Shown: positions 169 to 15,591 of the stretch, piece after piece
Position numbering within the stretch: the stretch's first letter is position 1
Layout of the letters: each line of letters begins with the position of its first letter
Source: Actinomycetota bacterium
GTDB taxonomy: Bacteria; Actinomycetota; Geothermincolia; Geothermincolales; RBG-13-55-18
Assembly: GCA_014360645.1 (NCBI GenBank)
Contig: JACIXD010000012.1
Location: 1 to 64,000, forward strand
Reading direction: 5' to 3'
DNA length: 64,000 nt
The notes under the pieces: generated by a model
What the model was told of the DNA's origin: nothing
The model's input: only the letters and a program-made list of their open reading frames with translations
Database searches by the model: none
Position numbers and translations under genes: made by a program

Positions 169-251
169 TCACTATCCTATGCAGGCGTTTTACCGAGAGG
201 AAACGGTTTATCTCTTAAATTCCTGTTGCAGTTTCAATTAATCGACGAAAT

Positions 252-2475
252 GTTTCAATCTCCTGAACGGAGATTTTTCTTTTTCTACATTGCAATTGCA
301 GGATGGGCGCCACATCATAATCTAGTTTCAATCTCCTGAACGGAGATTTTTCTTTTTCTACGCGGTAGTTGAGGCGGTCTACCACCCAGATATACGTACC
401 GGTTTCAATCTCCTGAACGGAGATTTTTCTTTTTCTACTATTCTAGAAAGGTCTTCATGTTTACCACGCAAGCGCCCGTTTCAATCTCCTGAACGGAGAT
501 TTTTCTTTTTCTACTAGTATTAGAAACGCCGCGGCATTGTTAAGAGATGAGGTTTCAATCTCCTGAACGGAGATTTTTCTTTTTCTACTATCTATATCCT
601 GGCCTCGGAGCGCATCGCTCCGGGCTGTTTCAATCTCCTGAACGGAGATTTTTCTTTTTCTACCAATAACTGCGCTAATTCGGCGGCAGTCAATAGTTTT
701 TGTTTCAATCTCCTGAACGGAGATTTTTCTTTTTCTACCAACAAAAAACCTCCAGGCCGGGTCATGGCCTGGAAAGTTTCAATCTCCTGAACGGAGATTT
801 TTCTTTTTCTACGAGGAAGAGATAGAACGCATCCTTGAGGATATGAGCATCGTTTCAATCTCCTGAACGGAGATTTTTCTTTTTCTACAACGGGTATGCC
901 GTCAGGGCGACATCTATTTCCGCCCGTTTCAATCTCCTGAACGGAGATTTTTCTTTTTCTACTCCAGAACATCGCGGTGGCGCGGGAAGAGGAAGAGGAT
1001 GTTTCAATCTCCTGAACGGAGATTTTTCTTTTTCTACCTCGATATTACGAGGATGGATCGATTGGTTGGGGAGAGAGTTTCAATCTCCTGAACGGAGATT
1101 TTTCTTTTTCTACACGTAAGGAAGCCCGCTATCTGTCCCGCCTACACCATCGGTTTCAATCTCCTGAACGGAGATTTTTCTTTTTCTACCAGGGTAACCA
1201 GGACCGCTCCCCGCGGTCCAGCGAGGTTTCAATCTCCTGAACGGAGATTTTTCTTTTTCTACCGCCATCATCCGCGTCCACCTACTCTCGGAGACTGCCG
1301 CCGTTTCAATCTCCTGAACGGAGATTTTTCTTTTTCTACGGAGGAATTCTTGCGCGGGGATGAATTGATCGGGATATGTTTCAATCTCCTGAACGGAGAT
1401 TTTTCTTTTTCTACACGGTTCCCCTGCCGGAGCGGTGGCCACCTTCGACCCCCGGTTTCAATCTCCTGAACGGAGATTTTTCTTTTTCTACATTGATATC
1501 AATGACAAACTCCAGGCGGAAAAACTGTACCGCGTTTCAATCTCCTGAACGGAGATTTTTCTTTTTCTACCTGAGGGATGCGAGTATGGGGAGGTGCATA
1601 GTAAGTGTCGTTTCAATCTCCTGAACGGAGATTTTTCTTTTTCTACGAGAAAAAAATGATTTATGTCGATTTTGTCACGATAAAGTTTCAATCTCCTGAA
1701 CGGAGATTTTTCTTTTTCTACCCTAGAAGGTGGTTATGGGAGGAAGGAAGGAGGACGGGGAGTTTCAATCTCCTGAACGGAGATTTTTCTTTTTCTACTG
1801 ACTGAAAGGGTGCTCCAAATAAAACACGAATACGTGGTTTCAATCTCCTGAACGGAGATTTTTCTTTTTCTACCCGGCAAGAGGATTTATCGGCAGGGCG
1901 ATATCTATTTCCGGTTTCAATCTCCTGAACGGAGATTTTTCTTTTTCTACATGGTGTCCCAATGTTGGCCCGTGCTAGGTTGGAGGTGGTTTCAATCTCC
2001 TGAACGGAGATTTTTCTTTTTCTACTCGCAGATATGCACGTAAGTATGCATGAGCTTGTCAGGTTTCAATCTCCTGAACGGAGATTTTTCTTTTTCTACC
2101 CGGATATGACCTTCATTGTGCCACGCCTCACAATCTGGTTTCAATCTCCTGAACGGAGATTTTTCTTTTTCTACCTGGTATTGAGCCGGAGGTTCTCAAC
2201 GAGCTCCTCGATTGGTTTCAATCTCCTGAACGGAGATTTTTCTTTTTCTACAAGATTTCTGGACAGAGTAAATAGCAAAACTAGGAAGGTTTCAATCTCC
2301 TGAACGGAGATTTTTCTTTTTCTACTTGGAGGCTCTCCTGAAGAAGCGTGCATGATTAGCATGGTTTCAATCTCCTGAACGGAGATTTTTCTTTTTCTAC
2401 CTGGGTAATGGTGGAATAATTAAAGAGAGGTTGTGATGGTTTCAATCTCCTGAACGGAGATTTTTCTTTTTCTAC
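252..2475 (-). CRISPR. CRISPR array, 30 repeats / 29 spacers, type III-A associated
   Basis: There are thirty copies of a 37-nt repeat that starts GTTTCAATCTCC and ends TTTTTCTAC on the plus strand; I saw no variant copy, even at the far end. Spacers are 36-42 nt. Read on the minus strand, the repeat ends in ATTGAAAC, the usual 8-nt 5' handle of crRNAs in type I-B/III systems. It also contains a 6-bp hairpin (ATCTCC, loop GTTCA, GGAGAT) just before the handle, which Cas6 would use. The array is therefore transcribed leftward, downstream of cas1-cas2, with the leader at about 2476 and the trailer near 250. A GTTTCAAT at 231-238, only 21 nt from the terminal repeat, may be a decayed repeat remnant. 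Confidence 0.99.
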
Positions 2476-2937: not shown

Positions 2938-3225
2938 TCATGCCACGTAGATGTCCACGTCATGCGAGAAAACCCCTTCGCCCATGATCTCGCTTCTCTC
3001 CACGCATGACTGGCAGATCTTATAAAAGCGCACCAGGGCCTCGTTGTCCGAGATTATCTCCTCCAGCGCTTCCTTCATCTCATGGTATTTCCCCTCGCTG
3101 AGCACGCATTCGAACACGCTCAGCTGCACGTGGTCGCCGTAGTTCTTGAGCTCGTTACAGACCTTCGTCCGCACGCGGTCATTGGGGATATCGTAGACGA
3201 CGACCACGAAATGCCTGACCTGCAT
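2938..3225 (-). CDS. cas2: CRISPR-associated endoribonuclease/integrase subunit Cas2
   Basis: This 95-residue protein has the Cas2 size and ferredoxin-like pattern. It opens with a beta strand and the metal-site region VVVVYDIPND (Asp at about residue 12), and contains the NYGDHVQLSVFEC segment typical of the family. Cas2 dimers bridge two Cas1 dimers in the spacer-integration complex. The gene starts 9 nt after cas1 ends and is the last gene of the leftward cas operon before the leader and array. Nothing appears broken. Confidence 0.97.
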   Translation of the reverse strand: MQVRHFVVVVYDIPNDRVRTKVCNELKNYGDHVQLSVFECVLSEGKYHEMKEALEEIISDNEALVRFYKICQSCVERSEIMGEGVFSHDVDIYVA

Positions 3226-3234
3226 GGGTCGCTC

Positions 3235-4227
3235 CTAACGGGATAGGTAGGGGCGGTAGGGTTTGCGGCCCTGCAGGTCCGCCACCAGCCTGCGAGCCTG
3301 CAGTTGGAAGGCCACCAGGTGATTCACCGGGTTGTCGCGGTCCGGGTGCTTGAACTCCCCGTAGAGCCTCTGGTTGTATTGGGCCACGAACTCCTTTAGG
3401 GCCTTCTCGCTCAGGAAGACCGAACCGTCCTTCTCACGGAAGTCGCCACTATTCAGTATCCCTTTGTTTACACAGGTCAGGGCGAGCGAGTCCACCAGCT
3501 CGGGCCGCCATTCCTCCATAAGGTCCAGGGCGAGAGAAGGCCTGCCGTAGCGGTCGCCGTGGAGGAAGCCCTGGTAAGGGTCCAGGCCTGCCGATTCCAG
3601 GGCAGACCATATGTTGCTCAGCAGTAGGGAATAGCCGAAGCTCAGGAGGGCGTTGAAGGCGTCACGGGGCGGCCTGCGAGTCCTGCAAGGGAAGGCGAAC
3701 TCCTCGGGCAGCAGTTCCCGCAGGGCGGAGAAATATACCGCTGAAGCGCGACCCTCCAGGCCTCGCACCTCATTCAGCGTATCCGCGCCGTGCAGTTCCG
3801 CGAGGCAATGCTTGAGCGCGTTTATGGGTTCCTCCATGCCAGTAAGCCCCCTGCGTCGGCGCTGGCGCTGGAGAATTATCCTTTGGTTGTGCACCTTGCC
3901 GTGCACGAAGCTCTTGGCAAGGTCGAGGCACCTGCACGCGTCTTCCGTGGCCAGGAACTGCAGGCGCCGCAGGGTACCGTGATTGGTGAAGCCCGGCCAG
4001 AGGTGGCCTTTCAGCCTCCCGCGCATGCTGAGGAAGGACACCCCGACGTTCGCCTTGAGCAGGTAGTCAAGGATGGGAACGGTGAAGGACACGTTCCCGT
4101 AGATGATAATCTGGTCCAGCTTGAAGCCGGGGATGTCCGAGATCACCTTGTCGTCTTTCTCGACGATGATCCGGGCACCCTTGCGCCTCAGTTTTGCTCC
4201 TTGTTCAAGTACATAAAGTATCGCCAT
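3235..4227 (-). CDS. cas1: CRISPR-associated integrase Cas1
   Basis: Cas1 is the metal-dependent integrase that inserts new spacers at the leader. The start ATG at 4227 is preceded by GAGGAGG at 6-8 nt and gives 330 residues; an open frame continues 26 codons upstream but lacks family similarity. The N-terminal beta domain (MAILYVLEQGAKL) is followed by the alpha domain with the catalytic residues: Glu in GLEGRASAVYF, His in QGFLHGDRYGRPS, and the acidic LALDLMEEWRP helix. It lies between cas6 (180 nt away) and cas2 (9 nt away). There is no reverse-transcriptase fusion. Confidence 0.97.
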   Translation of the reverse strand: MAILYVLEQGAKLRRKGARIIVEKDDKVISDIPGFKLDQIIIYGNVSFTVPILDYLLKANVGVSFLSMRGRLKGHLWPGFTNHGTLRRLQFLATEDACRCLDLAKSFVHGKVHNQRIILQRQRRRRGLTGMEEPINALKHCLAELHGADTLNEVRGLEGRASAVYFSALRELLPEEFAFPCRTRRPPRDAFNALLSFGYSLLLSNIWSALESAGLDPYQGFLHGDRYGRPSLALDLMEEWRPELVDSLALTCVNKGILNSGDFREKDGSVFLSEKALKEFVAQYNQRLYGEFKHPDRDNPVNHLVAFQLQARRLVADLQGRKPYRPYLSR

Positions 4228-4407
4228 CTTCAGTCCTCCTCGGGCAATCAATAATACGAACGTGGGAACGCCGTGTAACATGGGCCGGGGTGGATGCGCG
4301 GGCACCGCCGCAGGGACAGGGGGCCCCGGGCAGGGGCTGAGCGAGCGGGGGAGGGCAAGAAGAAGCAGGGAGCGCTCAATCGCGCATAGCCGGAATCCCG
4401 GGCACGG

Positions 4408-5229
4408 TCACGCCGCCGGTAACTCGGGCGTGGTGCCGAAGCGGACCTGCCCCATGCCCATGGTGGTCTTCATTCCCAGCCCGGAATACTCGCAGAAGCG
4501 CGCCAGGAGATGCATGGCCCGGCGCAGGTCCTCGTCCTCGGTGCCCAGGATATACTCACAGCGGCCCACCACGCCCACATGGCGGAAGCGGTCGAAATGC
4601 AGGATATGGGTGGAAAGGCTGAAGCGCGAGGGCTGCACGTATCTTTCGGCCAGCTCGTGCAGGTTCGTGCCGAGGTCGACGCGGGATATGGCCGACCATG
4701 CCCGGTTGGCGCTCTGCCACACCAGCCGGGGCAAGGGGAAGAGCATGTTGCGCCCGCCGCTCCGGAAAGCGGTCGGGGTCACGAACCTCAAGGTCAGCTT
4801 GCGCGGTGGCGGCTTCCTCTGCACTATGCACTCGCGGTAGAGGTCATCTGCGTCCACCGCGCCGGCTCGGGTTCCCGCCACGATGAGCTCGGCCTCGCCC
4901 AGCCGGAGGGGGCGCCCCTCCATCCCAGGGAGGATCTCCTCCACCCACAAGCGGGCTAAGCTCTCCTCGAGCATGGTGAAGCGCAGAGTGTAGCACTTTC
5001 CGGCGCCCAGCCTTAGCCTGCCCTGGCCGAGCGACTCCATCTCGCCCATGAGAGTGGAGACGGTGTACGGCTTGGGCGGCTTCATGTCGTGCAGGCGTGC
5101 GGACAACGCCTCGTCCGCCTCTCTCACCAGGTCAAGGAAAACGGCGTTCAAGCGCTGTCCGCCCCCCGCGGATATCTCCATCGTGTCCGGTGCCATCAGG
5201 TCAAGGCACGACTCCAAAAGCAGGCTCAA
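4408..5229 (-). CDS. cas6: CRISPR RNA-processing endoribonuclease Cas6
   Basis: This protein cuts the pre-crRNA at the repeat hairpin to leave the ATTGAAAC handle. It has 273 residues from a TTG start at 5229, chosen because AGGAGGG lies about 8 nt upstream. The C-terminus carries the Cas6/RAMP glycine-rich loop (GLGMKTTMGMGQVRFG, about residues 250-265). The middle RKLTLRFVTPTAFRS is a typical RAMP beta-strand followed by the 'TPT.F' motif of the pfam10040 Cas6 family. The likely catalytic His cannot be chosen with confidence. It lies between the CARF/HEPN gene (119 nt) and cas1 (180 nt) on the same strand, so co-transcription is likely. Confidence 0.92.
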   Translation of the reverse strand: MSLLLESCLDLMAPDTMEISAGGGQRLNAVFLDLVREADEALSARLHDMKPPKPYTVSTLMGEMESLGQGRLRLGAGKCYTLRFTMLEESLARLWVEEILPGMEGRPLRLGEAELIVAGTRAGAVDADDLYRECIVQRKPPPRKLTLRFVTPTAFRSGGRNMLFPLPRLVWQSANRAWSAISRVDLGTNLHELAERYVQPSRFSLSTHILHFDRFRHVGVVGRCEYILGTEDEDLRRAMHLLARFCEYSGLGMKTTMGMGQVRFGTTPELPAA

Positions 5230-5348: not shown

Positions 5349-6812
5349 TCACAGCCTTATGAAGTTGTGACGGTCCACGAGGTCGTCGAGGTCCTCGCCC
5401 ATGATGTTGGCGAGGCGCCCGAGTACAAGGTACGCCTGCTGAGTGAACTCTTCCACGTTGCCGTCGGTGGCGCGCTTGTTGCCATGGATGAGGATCAGCT
5501 CGTTTCTCTTATCTACCGTCTTATGAAATCTCTTCAAACCATCGACGCCTTCTCTTCGCCAGAGTGGATCATCAAAGGCGGCGAGCAGGATGTGCCCGTG
5601 CATCATGCCCAGATCACGCGGCATCCTCACATAGTCGTTTCCGTAAACCTGCCGTGCAAAGTGCTCGTACCTGGCCTTTACCGCTTCAGGAACTAGTTCC
5701 CACCTGAGATTGTCGGTATCGAAGCCTTCCACGCCCTCCGATTCTATCTGTGCCAACCGCAGCTGCGAGACCAGCTCCAGGCAGCGGTAGATCCTCACCA
5801 CCGCGTCGTCGGGCGCTCCCGCTAGCTCTCTCCGCGCCGCGTTGCAGTAGAGGTCGACCGCCAGGTGCAGCCCGAACTCGGGAGACCTCCTTAAGACCTT
5901 GAACAGGCTCTCTCCCCTTGCCTCTCGCGAGAGCGTCTCGAGGACCATCAGGTTGCTGTCCAACCCGTCCAGGTCCACCTCAAGCTCGAACCTTTTGGCG
6001 GATTCCCTTGCTTTTCGAAGCTCTTCGCATGCCCGCCTGAAGTGGAACCTGTCCCAGAGGGAATACCCACGGACGATCCTTTCGAGAGTCTCCACCCGCG
6101 TCGCCACGGAAAGCGCCCTCTTGCCCTGGATCTCTCCCCTGACCTCTCTCAACTTCTCCGCAGCCGCCTCGAAGCTCCCGGCGTTGAACAGGTCCAGGCA
6201 CTGCCGGATCTTCAGCTCCCCCAGGGTGATGTAGGGGTTGGGCAGCTGGGTGAGGTATTCCGTGCCCGGCATGGGGGTCCTCAGCTCCGCGAGGTATTTC
6301 TCGTGGTCGACGTACAGGATGTCTATACCCAGGAAATTCGCCGCCGCCGCGGCCGCACTGACCATCGATTTCTTTCCCCCGGTATTGTCCAGGGCACAGC
6401 GCATCTCGCCCTCCCGCGACCACTCCTCCCAGCGCCTGCCGATCTTCTCGTATATATCCACCGGGTCGTCGGGATTCACCTTCTCGCGATCGTAGTGCAC
6501 CTCGTGCCGGCGGAGAAAATCAACCTCCTGGATCACCCTGGACAGGTGCGCTTCCGTGTCGGCAGTGTAGATGAAGAACACCCTGGAAGGCCTGACCGCG
6601 TCAAGGGTGAGGATGAGGGGCTGGGGAGTCGTGCCCACGGTCATGATCAGGGCGTCGTACCTGTTCTTGAACTCGGTGCACTTGCGCCGGAATTCCCCGC
6701 GGATGAGCGGGAACAACTCATCCCAGTAGAGCTTATCGGCCTCTTCCTTGCGTCCTGATTCGTGCAGCTCCAACCACTTCTCGCGCAGAGCGTCTATCCT
6801 CTTTCCCCCCAT
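5349..6812 (-). CDS. CARF-HEPN ribonuclease, TIGR02710/Csm6-like, cOA-activated effector
   Basis: This 487-residue ancillary effector of type III CRISPR. The CARF (ligand-binding) domain shows the TVGTT motif at residues 58-62 and DNTGGKKS at 142-149, matching the TIGR02710 branch of CARF proteins. The C-terminal domain has an HEPN ribonuclease motif, R436-(6 residues)-H443 (RNELILIH). In this family, binding of cyclic oligoadenylate made by Cas10 switches on non-specific RNA cleavage. The start at 6812 follows GAGGAGGAGGG. It lies 62 nt downstream of the sigma-factor gene and upstream of cas6. CARF assignment is strong; nuclease activity is inferred from the motif. Confidence 0.9.
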   Translation of the reverse strand: MGGKRIDALREKWLELHESGRKEEADKLYWDELFPLIRGEFRRKCTEFKNRYDALIMTVGTTPQPLILTLDAVRPSRVFFIYTADTEAHLSRVIQEVDFLRRHEVHYDREKVNPDDPVDIYEKIGRRWEEWSREGEMRCALDNTGGKKSMVSAAAAAANFLGIDILYVDHEKYLAELRTPMPGTEYLTQLPNPYITLGELKIRQCLDLFNAGSFEAAAEKLREVRGEIQGKRALSVATRVETLERIVRGYSLWDRFHFRRACEELRKARESAKRFELEVDLDGLDSNLMVLETLSREARGESLFKVLRRSPEFGLHLAVDLYCNAARRELAGAPDDAVVRIYRCLELVSQLRLAQIESEGVEGFDTDNLRWELVPEAVKARYEHFARQVYGNDYVRMPRDLGMMHGHILLAAFDDPLWRREGVDGLKRFHKTVDKRNELILIHGNKRATDGNVEEFTQQAYLVLGRLANIMGEDLDDLVDRHNFIRL

Positions 6813-6874: not shown

Positions 6875-7528
6875 TTATAAACCAACCTTCTTCCGGCAGG
6901 CACGGCGCAGCCTCGCTTTGAGGCGGGAATAGCGCATGCGCAGGCTCTCCTCGCTTTGCCCCATCAGGCCGGCGATCTCGCTCCACGCCAAGCGTTGCTC
7001 TTCGCGCATGACGATCAGCCGCATCTCGTCGTCTTCGAGCGAGGCGAGCAGGCTGCGTGCGCACGCGTGCTCCTCCTCCCGCAGGCAGCACTCCTCCGGG
7101 CCCTCGTTCATGCCGGCGGCGTCGGCCAGTAGCTCATAGGCCAAGCTCCCATCCGCGCCCGCTTCCGCATCAGCGCCGTGGGGGTGGAGCTCCGCCTCGT
7201 GAAGGTAAAGCCTTTTCCTGCGCGCTTCCTTGCGGTGGTGGTCGATGGCCAGGTTCCTGGCTGTGGCCAGAAGGGAGTTACGGCAGTGGGCGCGGTCTTC
7301 CCAGCGAGGACCGGAGCTTTCCGCCCTGGAGAGCATCCTTTCCACCGCCCCGTGAAGGAGGTCTTCCTCCATGCCCTCGAGGGTGTAGGGGCTGTTCCTG
7401 ATGATGCGCAGCAGGAAGAGTCGCTCCTCCCGGTAGACGGAAAAGAGCATCTCCAATCCGTCGTCGGGAAGGTCGCGGTCCTTCCAGGCCTTGCCGACCC
7501 CGGCCGGCGAGCTTTTCCTCTCGCGCAT
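6875..7528 (-). CDS. ECF-type RNA polymerase sigma-70 family factor at the head of the cas operon
   Basis: This 217-residue protein resembles ECF sigma factors. The sigma-2 region ends with LLATARNLAIDHHRKEARR (about residues 86-105), equivalent to the -10 binding helix. Sigma-4 (about 160-215) contains a helix-turn-helix, LAWSEIAGLMGQSEESLRMR, followed by a basic tail. An insert of about 40 residues separates the two regions. It is the first gene of the leftward operon, 62 nt before the CARF/HEPN gene, with its own sigma-70 promoter and an SD-sequestering hairpin upstream. No anti-sigma gene is adjacent. A role in controlling the CRISPR locus is inference; alternatively it is an unrelated island regulator. 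Confidence 0.88.
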   Translation of the reverse strand: MRERKSSPAGVGKAWKDRDLPDDGLEMLFSVYREERLFLLRIIRNSPYTLEGMEEDLLHGAVERMLSRAESSGPRWEDRAHCRNSLLATARNLAIDHHRKEARRKRLYLHEAELHPHGADAEAGADGSLAYELLADAAGMNEGPEECCLREEEHACARSLLASLEDDEMRLIVMREEQRLAWSEIAGLMGQSEESLRMRYSRLKARLRRACRKKVGL

Positions 7529-7535
7529 GCGATTA

Positions 7536-7567
7536 CCTCCTTCTCAAGGAGGCACAAGGGCGCCTCC
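7536..7567 (-). promoter_or_regulatory. Shine-Dalgarno hairpin with alternative pairing (RNA switch candidate)
   Basis: On the minus strand the SD AAGGAGG (7542-7536), 7 nt before the sigma-factor ATG, pairs perfectly with CCTCCTT (7552-7546) across a 3-nt GAG loop. The same middle segment, GCCTCC (7553-7548), can instead pair with GGAGGC (7567-7562) across an 8-nt loop, which would free the SD. Two mutually exclusive stems around a start codon are the layout of a translational switch such as a thermosensor, leader-controlled or protein-bound element. The pairing is read directly from sequence; its function is inferred. Confidence 0.6.
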
Positions 7568-7724
7568 ACTCGCCGCTTTCTCGCGGTAACCGCATGCTCT
7601 TCCCGCCCGCCGAGGGCGGTTTTCAAGGTCCAAGACGCAAACACGCCACTGTATCCGCAAAGGCGCCTCAATGGAGACGCCACTCGATACAGCGGCTCGT
7701 CAACGCCCGTATAAGAGCATTTCT

Positions 7725-7753
7725 TATATACCATGGTACAGGCAAAGCGTCAA
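7725..7753 (-). promoter_or_regulatory. Sigma-70 promoter for the sigma-factor/cas operon
   Basis: On the minus strand TTGACG (7753-7748) and TATATA (7730-7725) are separated by exactly 17 nt. Transcription would start near 7717, giving a leader of roughly 190 nt that ends in the SD hairpin before the sigma-factor gene. The long leader contains further GC-rich inverted segments (e.g. CCGCCCTCGGCGGGCGG near 7600). Confidence 0.6.
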
Positions 7754-8485: not shown

Positions 8486-8537
8486 TTGACAAATTTGGTT
8501 ATAATATCGGTGACAAAATTCCAGGGTATGATATACA
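8486..8537 (+). promoter_or_regulatory. Putative promoter region of the csm operon with twin TGACAAA motifs
   Basis: A sharply AT-rich segment contains TGACAAA twice (8487-8493 and 8511-8517), each followed by AATTT or AATT. TATAAT occurs at 8500-8505 but only 8 nt after the first TTGACA. The best conventional pairing is GTGACA (8510-8515) with TATACA (8532-8537), 16 nt apart. The cas10 start follows about 50 nt later. The duplicated motif 24 nt apart might be an operator or an ECF-type -35 site. Confidence 0.4.
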
Positions 8538-8588
8538 GCTTTTCAGCAGAGGCCTACCTGATCGAGGCTATGTTTGGGGGAGGATGAA

Positions 8589-11057
8589 TTGTCACAATTC
8601 AAGGACTTGGTCATCGGTTCTTTACTGCACGACATTGGCAAACTCGTTCAGAGAGCCGATCCTAACCCGAGTTCCAAAACACACCAGCAATTCGGAGCCG
8701 ATTGGCTTGAGGAGTTCGATTTTCTAAAAAAGTACAGCGCATATTCTCTTTGGCATCATACAAGGGAAGCTCGGCAAGAAAAGGTGCCACTTCTTATGGT
8801 TGTGAATGCCGCGGATATGTTAGCTGCAGGAGAGAGGACAAAACACGAGGAGGATGCCAAGACATCCTGGGAGAGAGAGATACCGTTGCTCTCCATATTC
8901 TCGAAGATACGGGTTGATGACGGTGACTCAGACCCCGGAGAAGCGTCTGTTTCCTCGCCGCGTTACTACCCCTTGAAACAGGCAGACACGGTGTTTTTCC
9001 CATGTCATCTGCATGACGAGATAAAAGGAACCCGCGAAGCCTATGCGGCCCTGTTGTCAGGCCTCGAAACGGATATCAGGGCTATCGAGCGCGCTTTTGG
9101 TGTCAATACCCTACTTGTTCTGCTCGAGAAATATCTGAGTTACGTACCCGGTGATACTAGGGTCGAGGGGGGAGCCCCGGAAAGAGACCCCGACATCAGC
9201 CTGTTCGACCACCTGAAGCTCACGGCGGCAATCTCTTCTTGCCTTTATGGATACATGATCGAAAAGCAGCCGGACGTGGACGGTTGGGACGAGGAATTCA
9301 TCTATGATGCCGCGGAGAAACGTTATATTGTTCTCGACGCTGACCTTTCCGGTATCCAGCCCTTCATCTACAACATCTCCTCAAAAGGAGCCCTGAGGTC
9401 ACTGCGGGCACGGTCGTTCTATCTCGAGATGGTGTGCGAGAACATCGCGAACAGGATACTGCACACATGCGGACTCGAAAGGGTGAACTTGATCTTCAGC
9501 GGTGGAGGCAGGCTGCGGTTGCTCATGCCCAACACCGAGAAAGCGAGAGAGGCGGCAAGGGAAACCGAGAAGGCAGCCAACGCGTTTTTCCGGGACGAGC
9601 TTTCGGGAAGTATCGGACTGAACGTAGCCTGGGAGGAGTTCGCCGGATTGGAGATGATGAGGAGCTCCGAGCAGGGTGGCGAAAGCCAGAGATCCTACAA
9701 GAAAGTGCTCGAGGACCTGCGCGTCAAGCTTGAGACGCGAAAGAAGGATAGGATCATTGATGAGCTGATCGAGCGCAGATTCGAGATGCTCGGGCCCTTC
9801 GAGCCCGGGGAAGACGAGTGCAGGATATGCCATTGCGAGAGCGACGAACTAGAGCCTTTGCGAGAGCATGCGGAGGGCGAAGAGCCGGTGCTTTCCTGCC
9901 CATTGTGCAGGGACCTATACGTTCTTGGCGGTAGCTTGAGGGGGCTTGAGAGGCTGTGGATGTCCGAGGACGAGGTGTCCGGCTATCACTCCTTGCGGCT
10001 GCCGTTCGGCCATCTTCTCTGGCCCAAAGATGAAGAAGCGAGTGAGCCCGAGGGAGGGTGGGGCATAGTTCTCGACAAAAGGTGGGATGCCGACTCATAC
10101 CACTCACCAAATGATTATGGGTTGAGCTATCCCCACTACCGTGAGGGGGAAGATTTCGAGGACCTTGCGGAGAAATCCTGCGGAGCCCACTGGCTCGGCA
10201 TACTGCGGATGGATGTCGACGACCTGGGAAGGATATTCGGCGGCGGTATTCCCGAGCAAGAGATGAGCTTCACCCGCATATCCGTGCTGTCTCGGCTGAT
10301 GAACAACTATTTTAGGGAGGTCCTGCCCAGCGTCCTCAGAGGCGGCGCGGAGGGTTATGAAAACTTCACCGTCCTGGAAGACACGCGTTTCCCACGCCCG
10401 CTCGAAATAGTGTATGCGGGAGGCGACGATCTCTTCATCGTGGGTGCGTGGAACCATATAATCGAGGCGGCCTTCGACATCAGGGAGACGTTCGCGCTTT
10501 ATACCTGTGAAAACCAGGGCATCCATATAAGCGGTGGCATCGTAATAAGCAGGCACGACCATCCCCTTTACGACCTGGCGCGTATCGCGGAGATCGCGGA
10601 GAACAACGCGAAAAGCGTTGATCGCTCAAAAGACCGCATCGAGATCTTCGGGCGGACAGGCAAGTGGCAGAAGTACAGCCGAGCGGTTGAGCAACTGCTC
10701 CTGCCATTTCTGAACCTCGGAGAGGGCAAGGGGGTAGTGAAAAAGACCGAGAACGGGAATAAACACGCCGAACTGGCTCTTTCTCGCGCGTTCTTGCGCA
10801 ACGTGATGGCGATCGCGCGCAGATATGAAAGCCTTCAGCGCAGCGGTGAATCAGGCAAGCTGGCCTTTCCCTATCTTGCATATACGGTTGCGCGAGCGCG
10901 GGAAACGATCAAGAAGGATGGGCACAATGGGGGAGAGCTTCCTGAGAGGTGGATGACCCTCGAGAGAGCGCTCTTCGATATAGGCAATTACGACATCCTT
11001 TATTCGCTTGCATCATGGGCAGACTTACTGTCAAGAGGAGGTAGAACAGATGAATAG
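8589..11057 (+). CDS. cas10: Cas10/Csm1, type III-A cyclic oligoadenylate synthase and DNase subunit
   Basis: This is the large subunit of the Csm interference complex. I chose the TTG at 8589 because GGAGG ends 5 nt upstream (822 residues); a TTG at 8574 would add five residues. The N-terminal HD nuclease motif LLHDIGK (His14-Asp15) is intact, as is the cyclase motif AGGDDLF (GGDD about 611-614). Both ssDNA cleavage and cOA synthesis are therefore predicted. A zinc-finger-like insert (CRICHC ... CPLCRD, about 410-445) and the first palm domain (DADLSGIQPFIYNISS) are present. Its stop overlaps the csm2 start. It is first in the rightward operon, whose two CARF partners would be triggered by its product. 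Confidence 0.97.
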   Translation: MSQFKDLVIGSLLHDIGKLVQRADPNPSSKTHQQFGADWLEEFDFLKKYSAYSLWHHTREARQEKVPLLMVVNAADMLAAGERTKHEEDAKTSWEREIPLLSIFSKIRVDDGDSDPGEASVSSPRYYPLKQADTVFFPCHLHDEIKGTREAYAALLSGLETDIRAIERAFGVNTLLVLLEKYLSYVPGDTRVEGGAPERDPDISLFDHLKLTAAISSCLYGYMIEKQPDVDGWDEEFIYDAAEKRYIVLDADLSGIQPFIYNISSKGALRSLRARSFYLEMVCENIANRILHTCGLERVNLIFSGGGRLRLLMPNTEKAREAARETEKAANAFFRDELSGSIGLNVAWEEFAGLEMMRSSEQGGESQRSYKKVLEDLRVKLETRKKDRIIDELIERRFEMLGPFEPGEDECRICHCESDELEPLREHAEGEEPVLSCPLCRDLYVLGGSLRGLERLWMSEDEVSGYHSLRLPFGHLLWPKDEEASEPEGGWGIVLDKRWDADSYHSPNDYGLSYPHYREGEDFEDLAEKSCGAHWLGILRMDVDDLGRIFGGGIPEQEMSFTRISVLSRLMNNYFREVLPSVLRGGAEGYENFTVLEDTRFPRPLEIVYAGGDDLFIVGAWNHIIEAAFDIRETFALYTCENQGIHISGGIVISRHDHPLYDLARIAEIAENNAKSVDRSKDRIEIFGRTGKWQKYSRAVEQLLLPFLNLGEGKGVVKKTENGNKHAELALSRAFLRNVMAIARRYESLQRSGESGKLAFPYLAYTVARARETIKKDGHNGGELPERWMTLERALFDIGNYDILYSLASWADLLSRGGRTDE

Positions 11058-11481
11058 AGAAAGAGCCGAGAGCCATACTGCGAATGTCGCTGGGAAGATC
11101 AAATCGCTGAGAAAGATGTCCGAGTTGGAAGTTGAGGATATGATCACCTTGGCAGAAGAGATGGGGAGGCGTTTAAGCTCGAGAGAGGTTGATCTTAAGC
11201 GAAGTCAGATCAGGAGATTCTTGGACGCCGTAAAAAAGATAGAGGCCCAGGTCAAAAGAAATCCAGAGCAGTTCAGCCGCGAGTCGCTCCTGCTCTTGAA
11301 ACCTAAACTCGCCTATGCCACGGGAAGGCTGAGGGAAGGCAAGAATAATCCGCTCGGGCCGTTTCAGGAAGTGATCGATCCTGCCATCGACAGGGTTAAA
11401 GACTACGCCGATTTCATGAGGTTTGCGAATTTTATGGAATCGATAATAGCGTACCACCGATTCCACGGCGGAAAAGAATAG
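11050..11481 (+). CDS. csm2: Csm2, small subunit of the type III-A complex
   Basis: This all-helical, 143-residue protein is of the size of Csm2 (Cas11). It contains the conserved ending LRFANFMESIIAYHRFHGGKE-like segment (FMRFANFMESIIAYH), which is characteristic of the family. The ATG at 11050 overlaps the cas10 stop and is preceded by AGGAGG inside cas10; an open frame extends 14 codons upstream but without a ribosome site. Csm2 lines the groove between Cas10 and Csm5 and contacts target RNA. Confidence 0.92.
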   Translation: MNRERAESHTANVAGKIKSLRKMSELEVEDMITLAEEMGRRLSSREVDLKRSQIRRFLDAVKKIEAQVKRNPEQFSRESLLLLKPKLAYATGRLREGKNNPLGPFQEVIDPAIDRVKDYADFMRFANFMESIIAYHRFHGGKE

Positions 11482-11499
11482 GATTAAGGGGGTTCAAAA

Positions 11500-12279
11500 A
11501 TGAGCGAGATATCGCAGCTTCCATTGCTCGGAAAGGTCTTTATCTCAGGAAAACTGATATGCTGTACCGGTCTCCATATCGGCGCATCGAAGGAGACCCT
11601 GGAGATCGGTGGGATTGACTCGGCCGTGGTGAGGGACCCCCTGACCCGCCAACCATATATTCCCGGGAGTTCGCTCAAAGGAAAACTGCGCTACCTCATG
11701 GAGAGAAGCGAGAAGGTGCTGTTCAACCGGTCAACCGGACAGGGCAAAAGACACGAGTGCCCGGAACGGGGATGCCCGGTTTGCAGGCTGTTCGGAAGCA
11801 CGGGGGCAAGGGAGGGGGACAACATCCCGTCCCCGCTGCGCGTCAGGGACCTGTTCTTGACCGAAGAATCCAGAGATTTGCTGGAAAAGATGGAAACCCC
11901 CCTTCAGTATACGGAGTGGAAGTTCGAGAACGCGCTGGATCGCGTGACCGCGGCGGCTAACCCGCGCAACCTAGAGAGGGTGCCCGCGGGGGCTGAGTTT
12001 CAGTACGAGATAGTCTATGATGTCCTCGACTTCGATCAGGCCAGGGAGGACCTGGCCAATCTCCTGCGCATGATGCAGCTTCTGGAGGACGACGCCTTGG
12101 GGGGGCACGGCTCTCGCGGCTACGGGAAAGTGGCATTCGCGGCGAATCGCATGGAAGTTCGCACCATCGATCAGTACAAGGGCGAAGCGGGCGAGGCTGT
12201 TGCGGTTGAGGCTGATAAGCTGGACGGGCTGGCCGCAAAGCTAGAAGAGTTGTTCAAAGCACTAGCCAACGGAGGTTAA
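11500..12279 (+). CDS. csm3: Csm3 (Cas7-type) RNase backbone subunit
   Basis: This 259-residue RAMP protein forms the repeated backbone of the complex. GGIDSAVVRDP places the catalytic Asp at residue 40, equivalent to Asp33 of Streptococcus thermophilus Csm3, which cleaves target RNA every 6 nt. IPGSSLKGKLRYL is the Csm3 signature, and GGHGSRGYGKVAF is the glycine-rich loop. A CPERGCPVC pair of cysteines (about 88-96) suggests a zinc site. It lies 18 nt after csm2. Confidence 0.97.
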   Translation: MSEISQLPLLGKVFISGKLICCTGLHIGASKETLEIGGIDSAVVRDPLTRQPYIPGSSLKGKLRYLMERSEKVLFNRSTGQGKRHECPERGCPVCRLFGSTGAREGDNIPSPLRVRDLFLTEESRDLLEKMETPLQYTEWKFENALDRVTAAANPRNLERVPAGAEFQYEIVYDVLDFDQAREDLANLLRMMQLLEDDALGGHGSRGYGKVAFAANRMEVRTIDQYKGEAGEAVAVEADKLDGLAAKLEELFKALANGG

Positions 12280-12280
12280 G

Positions 12281-13258
12281 GTGGGTGTCGTCCTTATCAA
12301 GCCCAGGACGCCTCTGCATCTCGGAGAGGCGACCGGCGCTCTTGAGAGGATAAGCGGTGTCATCCACACCGACACCTTATTCAGTGCCCTGTGCCATGCA
12401 TGGGGATACCTTTTTGGAAAAGACGGAGTGGATGGACTGCTTGCGGCATACGCCAATGGAGGGCACCCGATACGCATCTCATCCGCCTTTCCCTACACGG
12501 AGACCAACGGTGAATGTGGACCCCACAGGGCATATTACTTGCCGGCTCCGCCCAACCTGGGCTCGGCCTTCGGCCCCCAGACAGGAAAAGAGGCAAAGAA
12601 GCTGCGCTACATCACAGCGACGATGTACGGAAAATGGCTCGATAATGGATTGGCAGAGGAAGACCTCGAAGATATGGTACGGGCACAGCAGTCAGTGGAC
12701 GAAGCTTTCGAGATCAGAGCCGATGTGCACGTAGCCCTGGACAGGCCTACGCTCAAGGGACTTCCCTACTACGTATCGCGCCTGCACTGCCGGCAGGGCG
12801 GAGGCTTCTATTTCCTATACGAATGTGATCCAGCAGTGGAGAAGGATTTCAGGAGTGCCATGAGATTCCTCGGAGAACTAGGGATCGGAGGGGAGCGGAG
12901 CACCGGGAGCGGCGCATTCGAGCCGGAGTTCCTCGACTCAGAGCTGCTTCCCAGCCCTGGATATGCGGATTCAGGCGCATGGCTTTGCCTGAGCCTTGCT
13001 TTCCCCAGAGAAGATGAGCTGGACAAGCTCAAAGGTTCGCAAATCGCTCTCCTGGAAAGAAAAGGATGGATAAGTTCCCCCTTTACGCCTGATTCGTTTC
13101 GGAGAAAGAGGCTCCTCATGATCGCGGAAGGGTCCTTCCTGTCTGATAAAATGGAAGGTTGTATTGTTGACGTCACTCCATCCATCTGGAAGAAGGAGCT
13201 GCATCCCGTTTACCGTTATGGGCTTGCTTGGCTGATACCTGCCAGGAGTGTGGCTTGA
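12281..13258 (+). CDS. csm4: Csm4 (Cas5-type) crRNA-handle-binding subunit
   Basis: This 325-residue protein starts at GTG 12281, one base after the csm3 stop, with GGAGG 5 nt upstream. LKPRTPLHLGE-like N-terminus (IKPRTPLHLGEATG), HTDTLFSALCHAWG and the glycine-rich GIGGERSTGSGAF loop are Csm4 hallmarks. Csm4 caps the complex beside Cas10 and holds the 5' handle of the crRNA. Its stop overlaps the csm5 start (TGATG). Confidence 0.95.
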   Translation: MGVVLIKPRTPLHLGEATGALERISGVIHTDTLFSALCHAWGYLFGKDGVDGLLAAYANGGHPIRISSAFPYTETNGECGPHRAYYLPAPPNLGSAFGPQTGKEAKKLRYITATMYGKWLDNGLAEEDLEDMVRAQQSVDEAFEIRADVHVALDRPTLKGLPYYVSRLHCRQGGGFYFLYECDPAVEKDFRSAMRFLGELGIGGERSTGSGAFEPEFLDSELLPSPGYADSGAWLCLSLAFPREDELDKLKGSQIALLERKGWISSPFTPDSFRRKRLLMIAEGSFLSDKMEGCIVDVTPSIWKKELHPVYRYGLAWLIPARSVA

Positions 13259-14439
13259 TGGAAACGTTGAACCTGCGGTTGGAAGCGTTGACACCGGTAA
13301 GAATAGGTTCGTATGTGGGTCAGATAACACCTTACGACTATGTGATCTCCGGCGGCAACTGCTACGTGATCAGTGACGATAAGCTTTCTGCGTTTCTTGG
13401 AGAGAAAGGCCTCATCGAGGATTTCTCAGAAGCGATCAGAAGGAAAGGCCAAGCCTTCAACATCGGGGATTATCTCGCTTCGAATGGGGTCAGCGACGAA
13501 GCTGGGCTAAAAAGCCTGTCGCGTTATGTAGTGCAGGTCCACGGTAATGCGCGCCCACTGCAGATGATGCCTCTCATACGGGACGTAGGAAATAAACCCT
13601 ACGTGCCAGGCTCCTCCATAAAGGGCGCCATAAGAACAGCGGTCATCTACAACTACCTGAAGGGCTTGAAGAGCTCGGACCAAAGACGCTTCGAGCAGGA
13701 CTTCATAAGAAAAATAGAAAGAAGGATCACAGATATCGAACAAAGGGAAAGGCGCAGGCCTGCCAGAGGGAGCAAGGGGTTCGCCAAAAGAATAGTCGAG
13801 GAAGGCATAGCGCAGTACTTCGATCTCGAAAGATATACCAGGAGGGACGGCTCGTATCTCCACGACCCTCATACCGATATCTTCCGCTGCCTGAAGGTAA
13901 CGGATGCTCTTCCATCAAAACCGCATAACCGCATATACGATTTCAGGGTTCTGGACAAACAGAACAACGGCAGCCTCTCGTTCGAGTCCCCTATCTTCGC
14001 AGAGGCCCTCTCCCCGGGTGCCGCCTTTGAGTTCACCCTGTCTTGGGACGCATGGCTTGCTGAGCGGTTCAAGGAAAGAAACGAGCTTTTAGTTGACGGC
14101 CTGGAGCAAATACTCCAGGCCTGCAGGGTGTTCGTCTCAGACCAGATCGAGTGGGAGCGCGAGTTCTTCGAATCCTGCGGGAAGGGCGACAGGGATCCAG
14201 GGAAGATAATCGATTCGCTTTCTACCATGGAGGCCGATATTCGTTTGGGATGGGGTTCGGGCCTGGTGGGAGCGAGCCTGTCGATGCTGCTTCCCGAACC
14301 AACAAGGAAGAGGCTGCGCGATCTATTCTACCGCCGGGGCTCATCGGCAGTCAGGGATTTTCCCAAGTCGCGCCGAGTCATGGTGGAGAACGAAAAGCCT
14401 GTATCGCTTCTCGGTTTTTGTAAGCTGATAGTTCTTTAG
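13258..14439 (+). CDS. csm5: Csm5 (Cas7-type) terminal subunit
   Basis: This 393-residue RAMP protein starts at the ATG overlapping the csm4 stop; an open frame reaches 13228 but lacks a ribosome site. LEALTPVRIGSYVG and YVPGSSIKGAIRTAVIYNYL are the Csm5 signatures, with MEADIRLGWGSGLVG as the glycine-rich loop near the end. Csm5 sits at the 3' end of the crRNA and helps its maturation. The CARF gene follows after 15 nt. Confidence 0.95.
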   Translation: METLNLRLEALTPVRIGSYVGQITPYDYVISGGNCYVISDDKLSAFLGEKGLIEDFSEAIRRKGQAFNIGDYLASNGVSDEAGLKSLSRYVVQVHGNARPLQMMPLIRDVGNKPYVPGSSIKGAIRTAVIYNYLKGLKSSDQRRFEQDFIRKIERRITDIEQRERRRPARGSKGFAKRIVEEGIAQYFDLERYTRRDGSYLHDPHTDIFRCLKVTDALPSKPHNRIYDFRVLDKQNNGSLSFESPIFAEALSPGAAFEFTLSWDAWLAERFKERNELLVDGLEQILQACRVFVSDQIEWEREFFESCGKGDRDPGKIIDSLSTMEADIRLGWGSGLVGASLSMLLPEPTRKRLRDLFYRRGSSAVRDFPKSRRVMVENEKPVSLLGFCKLIVL

Positions 14440-14454
14440 GGTGCGCATAAAGCC

Positions 14455-15591
14455 ATGAGGAAGATCGTTATCTGCACACTTGGGACGAGCCTCTTCTACC
14501 CCAACCTGTCCTCGATACCGGAGAACAACGAAGAGCTTGCCGGGTTGCGCAGGGCTTATCTGGAGCGGAACTGGGAGGCGCTCGCCGAGGAGCTCTACTG
14601 CCGAGACCCGAAAGACCGCATCTGCGGGGCCGAGATCAACAGCATGGCCAGCTTGCTCGAGGAAGGGTTGATCTCCGAAAGAGGCTCTCTTTACCTCTGC
14701 CATAGCGACACGCAGGACGGTCATGATGTTGCCGAAGTATTGAAGAATTATTACCGTCGCAGTGAATGGCAAGTCACGACCGAGCAGATTGAGGGACTGC
14801 ACGACGAAAACCCAAAGAGTTTCCGAACCCGGGGATTAAGAAACCTTGCCAAGACCATATCCCGCATAGTCAGGGAGTCCGGTTCCCCGGAGCTGTGCGC
14901 TATAAACGCCACCGGGGGCTATAAGGCGCAGATTGCCATCGCCGTTATGCTTGGCCAGGTCTTTGACATCCCAGTATATTACAAGCACGAGCGCTTCCCT
15001 ATGATCATCTCCCTGCCGCCCCTTCCGATCTCCCTCGACTTCCGCTACTGGGTGAAAAAATGCGGGGTCCTGCTTTCCCTGGACAAGGAGGATATCCTGC
15101 CATCCAGCGCTCTGGAGGAGGACTGGGATGAAAAGATGGAGGCCCTGGTCGAACGCGAGAAGATCGACGGTGTCCAGTATGTGGAGCTCTCTCCCTTAGG
15201 GGCGATCTTCCTTGAGGCCTTCAAAAGTTATTTCGAGCGCCAGTCGACCTCTCTACTCCCGATTGCCGTCGACCCTGCTGCGAAGAAAGCTGTCCGGCTA
15301 TCCGACCACTCATGGGGTGGGGCGCATACCAAAGTCAAGGCCTTCTTGCAGAAGATCGTCGACTTGGTCCCTTACGTCAAGGAAGTCAAAACGGATTATT
15401 TAAATCCCGACCTGCCGAAAGCAAGCTATTTCCGTCTGCGTGGCTCGGATAAGATCGAGGGCGTCCTGTCCAATGGCACATGGACCGTGAAATTCATCGT
15501 TTTTACTAGTGCCTCCAACCCATCTCAACTCGAGTCGGCGGTTGCCGACCTCAACATCAGGCTCAATCGTGGTGATTTTGGAAGTGTATGA
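14455..15591 (+). CDS. CARF protein of the APE2256/TIGR02619 family, probable CARF-RelE (Cami1-like) effector
   Basis: This 378-residue protein ends the csm operon, 15 nt after csm5. The N-terminal CARF domain shows ICTLGTSLF (residues 6-14) and NATGGYKAQI (151-160), the signature of the APE2256 group. A middle linker (about 200-280) is followed by a small alpha/beta domain (about 285-378: HTKVKAFLQKIV ... VKFIVFTSAS). In this family that position is occupied by a RelE-like mRNA interferase (Cami1, a ribosome-dependent nuclease activated by cOA). The CARF call is firm. The RelE call rests on family architecture and length; I could not identify catalytic residues with certainty. Confidence 0.85.
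   Translation: MRKIVICTLGTSLFYPNLSSIPENNEELAGLRRAYLERNWEALAEELYCRDPKDRICGAEINSMASLLEEGLISERGSLYLCHSDTQDGHDVAEVLKNYYRRSEWQVTTEQIEGLHDENPKSFRTRGLRNLAKTISRIVRESGSPELCAINATGGYKAQIAIAVMLGQVFDIPVYYKHERFPMIISLPPLPISLDFRYWVKKCGVLLSLDKEDILPSSALEEDWDEKMEALVEREKIDGVQYVELSPLGAIFLEAFKSYFERQSTSLLPIAVDPAAKKAVRLSDHSWGGAHTKVKAFLQKIVDLVPYVKEVKTDYLNPDLPKASYFRLRGSDKIEGVLSNGTWTVKFIVFTSASNPSQLESAVADLNIRLNRGDFGSV

Follow-up and report, generated by a model that had tools for sequence, protein, structure and literature searches.

The window, the whole 64,000-nucleotide stretch analysed here, carries a sigma factor gene directly in front of a set of CRISPR genes, and this raises the question whether the sigma factor is a dedicated part of the CRISPR system or a casual neighbour, and how it would be controlled. 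A sequence-only reading of the stretch had placed an ECF-like sigma factor at the head of a leftward operon with a CARF/HEPN nuclease, cas6, cas1 and cas2, and family models agreed with this assignment. The locus is made up as follows.

6875-7528, minus strand: gene for an ECF-type sigma factor of 217 aa, sigma2-flexible linker-sigma4 (TIGR02937; AF2 with Foldseek; homologues at the same place in five other genomes)
5349-6812, minus strand: gene for a TIGR02710/Csm6-like CARF-HEPN ribonuclease, predicted to be cOA-activated (TIGR02710, 129 bits; Cas_Cas02710 HEPN; PADLOC CARF1_HEPN, 272 bits)
4408-5229, minus strand: cas6, the crRNA-processing endoribonuclease (TIGR01877, PF10040)
3235-4233, minus strand: cas1, the spacer integrase (PF01867, 325 bits)
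2938-3225, minus strand: cas2 (PF09827, TIGR01573)
250-2473, minus strand: CRISPR array of 30 repeats GTAGAAAAAGAAAAATCTCCGTTCAGGAGATTGAAAC (crRNA strand), in the same direction as the sigma operon
8574-11057, plus strand: cas10/csm1 with HD and GGDD (cyclase) motifs, heading a divergent III-A effector operon (TIGR02578, 560 bits)
11008-14439, plus strand: csm2, csm3, csm4 and csm5 (family models)
14455-15591, plus strand: second CARF protein, of the CARF7-DUF2103 type, TIGR02619 (PADLOC PDLC01930, 411 bits)

The first gene is an open reading frame with an ATG start and the Shine-Dalgarno (SD) sequence AAGGAGG, and its product is a two-domain ECF-type sigma factor by its predicted fold. It scored 51.4 bits against the NCBIfam sigma70-ECF model TIGR02937 (cut-off 42.9), and its Pfam region-4 matches fell just under the cut-off. 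The AlphaFold model showed a confident sigma2 (residues 22-114) and sigma4 (residues 151-215) joined by a disordered linker, and the best Foldseek matches were ECF sigma factors, SigL (6dv9) and RpoE (1or7); the global TM-scores against solved ECF structures were kept low by the flexible link between the two domains, and sigma4 alone superposed on region 4 of E. coli sigmaE at 2.4-2.5 Å. Sigma2 and sigma4 are its sole domains, with neither sigma1.1 nor sigma3, which is the composition of ECF (group IV) sigma factors. Clade 1 shows strong conservation of the DNA-binding sigma4 end (LRxRYxRLKxRLRR). The product of the second gene exceeded the TIGR02710 cut-off of 83.9 bits and contains CARF and HEPN domains with the RX4-6H motif (R436-x6-H443, both residues invariant in alignment A3), which places it among the TIGR02710/Csm6 effectors.

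The CARF/HEPN gene starts at 6812, leaving the 62-nt gap that had been noted downstream of the sigma gene, and no terminator was detected on the sigma strand; cotranscription of the two genes is plausible here. The description of the sigma gene as heading a type III-A cas operon stood in part: it does head a cas operon, but that leftward operon contains no csm gene, and csm1 to csm5 form a separate rightward operon from 8574. The gene set of type III-A (Csm), cas10/csm1 with csm2-5, was found complete in this divergent operon and not with the sigma module elsewhere.

The array leader, between cas2 and the array, carries CCTTGAAAGCCGAATAGCG (window 2857-2839, minus strand), and a site of this type was also seen at L013 (around 16525), L014 (around 330-350) and L026 (around 1230). 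All other close matches to CCTTGAAAGCCGAATAGCG in the same genome lie in one rrn region, including positions just before the 16S and 23S rRNA. The site therefore looks like an rrn antitermination (boxA-type) signal reused ahead of the array; enterobacterial CRISPR arrays are known to undergo antitermination. A half-site of this signal, ACCTTGAAA, is present in the sigma leaders of the window and of the relatives G006 and G017. Also between cas2 and the first repeat lies a long GC-rich hairpin, GCGACGACCTCCGAGG...CCTCGGGGGTCGTCGC (window 2698-2657, minus strand), and such an array-leader hairpin is kept in at least three loci, at the same place in L013, L014 and L026.

If the sigma gene belongs to the CRISPR module, it should accompany it in other genomes. 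We searched 99 relatives with the sigma protein and obtained two close homologues, in G006 and G017 (53% and 49% identity; range 46-53%), both directly before CARF/HEPN-cas6-cas1-cas2. A second search with the CARF/HEPN protein gave these two and three further genomes, G013, G004 and G026, where reading of the upstream sequence revealed a sigma-like gene in front of CARF/HEPN as well. These diverged sigma factors are 24-29% identical to that of the window and had been missed by the first search; they were recognized by sigma models and a family profile. All three score under the TIGR02937 cut-off. In this sample of six loci from one class, mostly metagenome-assembled genomes, the sigma gene stands directly before CARF/HEPN in 6/6 loci of this CARF/HEPN subgroup (the window and its class-level relatives), and cas6-cas1-cas2 follow in 5/5 complete loci; the CARF gene of G026 ends at a contig edge, which puts cas6-cas1-cas2 outside view there. 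The gap between sigma and CARF gene is about 220-460 bp in G026 and G013, and cotranscription is therefore not certain in every locus. Five Cas1 proteins showed at least 48% identity, and these are exactly the Cas1 proteins of the five sigma loci that have cas1, the next one being at 39%. Those relatives that bear names are metagenome assemblies of Actinomycetota, among them Candidatus Geothermincola secundus (L031, on one contig with G017) and Candidatus Geohydrothermomicrobium daggyaiense (L035). The sigma protein of G004 (L027 6636-7676) has an insertion of about 110 residues within sigma2, where it separates the region 2.1-2.2 helices from those of region 2.3.

No sigma gene was found before more distant CARF/HEPN homologues (L028 and L029, after csm5 in G013 and G004; L034; other families). 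The CARF/HEPN relative of Candidatus Hakubella thermalkaliphila (L034 343-1845, 42% identity) is an orphan without adjoining sigma, cas6, cas1 or cas2, followed by a reverse-transcriptase fragment and the rimP-nusA-infB region. Sigma homologues were absent from the phage and plasmid collections, and CARF/HEPN relatives from viral contigs. Four other matches of the sigma search (L007, L008, L009 and L011) were set aside as other ECF sigma factors with long C-terminal extensions and no cas genes nearby; these proteins of about 480-520 aa, encoded in several relatives, have a hydrophobic segment and a long low-complexity C-terminus, one is encoded beside a sortase-like gene, and they are possibly envelope-regulated. 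As the 3.4-Mb genome of the window has just 12 sigma-family matches over the cut-off, it is not credible that the two genes adjoin by chance in each locus. We are highly confident that the sigma factor is an integral part of a mobile module made up of sigma, CARF/HEPN RNase, cas6, cas1, cas2 and array.

The module also seems to be inherited as a whole. Identities of the sigma, CARF, Cas6 and Cas1 proteins all group the window with G006 and G017, apart from G013 and G004, whereas by taxonomy G017 belongs to a different family and G013 and G004 to that of the window. This contradiction suggests that the module, sigma included, moves between bacterial families as one unit. The effector beside it varies: III-A in the window, with a csm1 likewise placed in G017, III-B in G006 as a complete cmr operon, and no adjoining effector in G013 and G004, where a csm operon and a csm5-like gene, respectively, lie on other contigs. 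The effector being exchangeable, the sigma factor is better seen as an arm of the CARF/HEPN-processing-adaptation module, and the sequence-only proposal of a transcriptional arm of a Csm system was too narrow. In G017, two open reading frames (L014 5342-6423) lie between the sigma promoter and csm1; both look to us like DUF488-type proteins, and the first has no NCBIfam match.

Each of the six sigma genes is preceded by a structured leader, as judged by computed structures. In the window its parts are the following.

7725-7753, minus strand: sigma-70-type promoter TTGACG-17-TATATA of the sigma operon (PWM scan)
7645-7696, minus strand: leader RNA element P1/P2, with outer stem GCCGCUGUAUC/GAUACAGUGGC, an internal loop with invariant CGA and inner hairpin GGCGUCUC-CAUU-GAGGCGCC (covariation, covariance-model search)
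7585-7597, minus strand: anti-SD arm GCATGCGGTTACC, pairing with 7525-7537 (MFE folds)
7548-7567, minus strand: second leader hairpin GGAGGCGC-CCUU-GUGCCUCC, enclosed by the stem that sequesters the SD (same place and C(CNUU)G loop in G006, G017, G013 and G026)
7525-7537, minus strand: SD/start-codon arm GGTAATCGCATGC, with AUG at 7528-7526 (computed folds, opening energies)

The P1/P2 element is conserved and covarying. Its 14 base pairs are kept in the five complete loci, all 70 of 70 cells being standard pairs, and in six of the 14 pairs both partners have changed; the several G-U pairs favour an RNA over a DNA palindrome. The conserved unpaired letters are CGA in the internal loop and CNUU in the terminal loop, and the sixth locus, G026, retains the inner hairpin alone. 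Rfam gave no match for the window leader up to E=10 or for four relatives up to E=1. With a covariance model, matches at E<1e-7 among 31 class genomes occurred solely at five sigma leaders, and a model built from three loci alone recovered the two others (E 0.003 and 0.008). Neither these 31 genomes nor a phylum sample of 297 held a further convincing copy: the phylum-sample matches L066-L071 (E 0.002-0.009) are near chance for 297 genomes and share no common context. Both leader hairpins (window 7683-7664 and 7567-7548, minus strand) have the same loop type, C(CNUU)G, in most loci, and this common loop may point to a protein that recognizes it. Three other readings of the leader were discarded, namely a leader peptide after P2 (GTG GCG TGT ... 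TGA), whose frame is lost in G017, G013 and G004, a mimic of the CRISPR repeat, from which the hairpin differs in stem and register, and a pairing of the P2 loop with the sigma SD, for which complementarity is present in some loci only.

Downstream of P1/P2, the computed folds predict that the SD and the start codon of the sigma gene are buried in a long stem. The pairing of 7597-7585 with 7537-7525 is kept in G006 and G017, and in G013 and G026 unrelated letters give SD pairing as well; in G004 sequestration is weak, 31 of 100 shuffles being equally strong. Opening the start region would cost 13.2 kcal/mol on average for the six sigma genes, compared with 8.1 for 21 cas genes nearby (Mann-Whitney p 0.004), and the sigma values exceeded those of shuffled upstream sequence (combined p 0.001); these figures are to be read with the caveats that GC-rich leaders fold readily and that the control genes are few and mostly operon-internal. 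We consider it somewhat more probable than not that the leader gates sigma translation, and the earlier guess that control may lie in translation fits a conserved leader predicted to sequester the SD.

The promoter that had been suspected near 7700 was found as a near-consensus sigma-70 site at 7753-7725, matched in quality by 6 of 200 shuffles, and a stricter promoter scan did not list it. Relatives have a similar site upstream of the leader's CGA, at a distance of 36-38 nt in clade 1 and 11-13 nt in clade 2, the match alone being not clearly above chance in G004 and G026. The second proposed promoter, near 8500, is weak, with TTGACA and TATAAT only 8 nt apart. Some relatives have array and cas10 promoters that resemble sigma-70 sites. 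Across three loci we searched four intergenic regions for a target-promoter motif, both as shared 4+4 bipartite words and as ECF-like GAAC...GTC, and found none; the sole shared words reflected conserved coding sequence where the sigma gene ends and were rejected. As the promoter of the sigma operon resembles a sigma-70 site and the search gave no target motif in common, the earlier idea that the sigma factor raises cas expression is unproven.

Taken together, the best explanation in our view, to which we give a probability of roughly 50%, is an RNA-gated sigma factor that belongs, as a dedicated component, to a mobile CRISPR module. From its housekeeping-type promoter the sigma mRNA would be made constitutively, and the leader fold would bury the SD and start codon, so that little sigma factor is produced. 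A signal sensed via P1/P2, be it a ligand, a protein or RNA cleavage in the type III response, would open the leader, upon which the sigma factor would be translated, bind core RNA polymerase and direct transcription from its own promoters, most likely those of CRISPR-module or other defence genes. The trigger, the rise of the sigma factor on leader opening and the target promoters are inferred parts of this model. Candidate triggers are cOA, Cas6 and HEPN cleavage. The grouping of its gene with cas1, cas2 and cas6 suggests that the sigma factor controls adaptation and the supply of crRNA, and we propose tentatively, at somewhat less than even odds, that its targets include module or defence genes. 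The fullest form of the model, in which the leader acts as an RNA sensor for the CRISPR response (for example for cyclic oligoadenylate, free Cas6 or HEPN cleavage) that switches on sigma translation, and the sigma factor drives spacer acquisition and defence genes without anti-sigma or protease, is conceivable and rather doubtful.

The same leader would also suit autogenous control, in which a module protein, most simply Cas6, otherwise the sigma factor or the CARF/HEPN RNase, binds or cleaves the hairpins and couples sigma output to free Cas6 or crRNA load instead of an infection signal. Such control would agree with the finding that each of the five complete loci has cas6 in this operon, with the loop common to the two hairpins in most loci, as expected of a protein site, and with the confinement of the leader element to these operons; the hairpins are, however, not copies of the repeat hairpin AAUCUCC-GUUCA-GGAGAUU, the stem being different, and we consider this explanation unlikely. 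A smaller chance still is given to post-translational activation in the manner of CalpS and CASP-sigma, where an unlinked anti-sigma would hold the sigma factor, a protease would free it and the leader would merely tune its level. Both characterized CRISPR sigma factors work so (PMC11417357, PMC10028731), but the genome has no SAVED protein over the cut-off, the locus no gRAMP-, Csx29- or Csx30-like genes, and the conserved module no additional gene in the five complete loci. The sequence-only reading was also right that no anti-sigma is apparent beside the sigma gene: in the window and its relatives no gene, and hence no CalpT-type one, separates sigma from CARF/HEPN or the promoter from sigma.

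Two further explanations concern the protein itself. It may be a sigma-like non-initiator that competes with the housekeeping sigma for core RNA polymerase and shuts down transcription during infection, leading to dormancy or abortive infection. The sub-threshold Pfam matches, the low TIGR02937 scores of G013, G026 and G004, the large insertion in sigma2 of G004 and the failure to find a target motif would all be in line with this; yet the DNA-binding end of sigma4 so strongly conserved in clade 1 would be needless for a decoy, and the predicted fold is a complete sigma2-sigma4, which makes a decoy quite improbable. Or it may be an ordinary ECF sigma factor travelling with the locus and having no CRISPR role, as such loci are mobile and gather cargo and the closest genus-mates of the window genome lack the module. 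Against such a passenger, which we consider very improbable, stand the identical position of the gene in 6/6 loci despite 25-50% identity, its retention when the effector type changes and its own conserved leader; in related loci the sigma gene was linked throughout and never the unlinked island cargo that the sequence-only reading had allowed for.

How, then, does this sigma factor compare with known systems? The earlier statement on sigma links to CRISPR named type III-E loci and overlooked CalpL/T/S, in which Cas10-type systems encode a SAVED-Lon protease, an anti-sigma and an ECF sigma factor (PMC11229360, PMC11417357), CalpS being freed from CalpT by cA4-activated CalpL (PMC11417357). The present locus resembles the type III CalpL-CalpT-CalpS system of Sulfurihydrogenibium in that an ECF sigma factor is encoded with a Cas10-type locus and a transcriptional response to infection is expected; it differs in that CalpS depends on an anti-sigma that holds it and a SAVED-Lon protease that frees it, neither of which was found (a CalpL-type SAVED match over the cut-off is absent from the whole genome), and in that the sigma gene heads a CARF/HEPN-cas6-cas1-cas2 operon behind a structured leader. 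With CASP-sigma of type III-E (Csx30, Csx29-Cas7-11) it shares the link of an ECF sigma factor to CRISPR, and for that system a role in controlling adaptation is suggested by motif matches at the promoter of cas1 (PMC10028731); here, in contrast, Cas7-11, Csx29 and Csx30 are missing and Cas10, Csm and CARF proteins present, and the CASP sigma model NF041236 gave the window sigma 14 bits against a cut-off of 100. As there is no SAVED protein over the cut-off in the genome and no extra gene in the conserved module, we place the module with neither CalpS nor CASP-sigma and regard it as a distinct form of CRISPR-coupled sigma signalling.

Csa3 and other CARF-HTH regulators exert cOA-linked transcriptional control of cas genes (PMC8844856), whereas here the CARF sensor belongs to a nuclease and a sigma factor, encoded separately, is the regulator. 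The second gene of the module is a member of the TIGR02710/Csm6-Csx1 CARF-HEPN effectors, known members of which are not described with a sigma gene in front; no paper in the open-licence literature linked TIGR02710 with a sigma factor, and the 2025 CRISPR classification, in the same literature, does not mention sigma factors. Like SD-sequestering riboswitches and RNA thermometers, the leader is predicted to hide an SD and has a 5' element with conserved loop letters; unlike them, it matches no Rfam family and was seen only before these sigma genes. This compact RNA is a directly testable element, and the module would offer a small, testable system for how type III systems time the uptake of new spacers. 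The findings suggest that this group of type III systems is able to turn on a programme of gene expression along a previously undescribed route. CRISPR-coupled sigma factors have so far been shown in two settings, both released by anti-sigma proteolysis, and a third setting, with adaptation and crRNA-processing genes and an apparent RNA gate, would mean that the link between CRISPR detection and promoter choice has evolved repeatedly.
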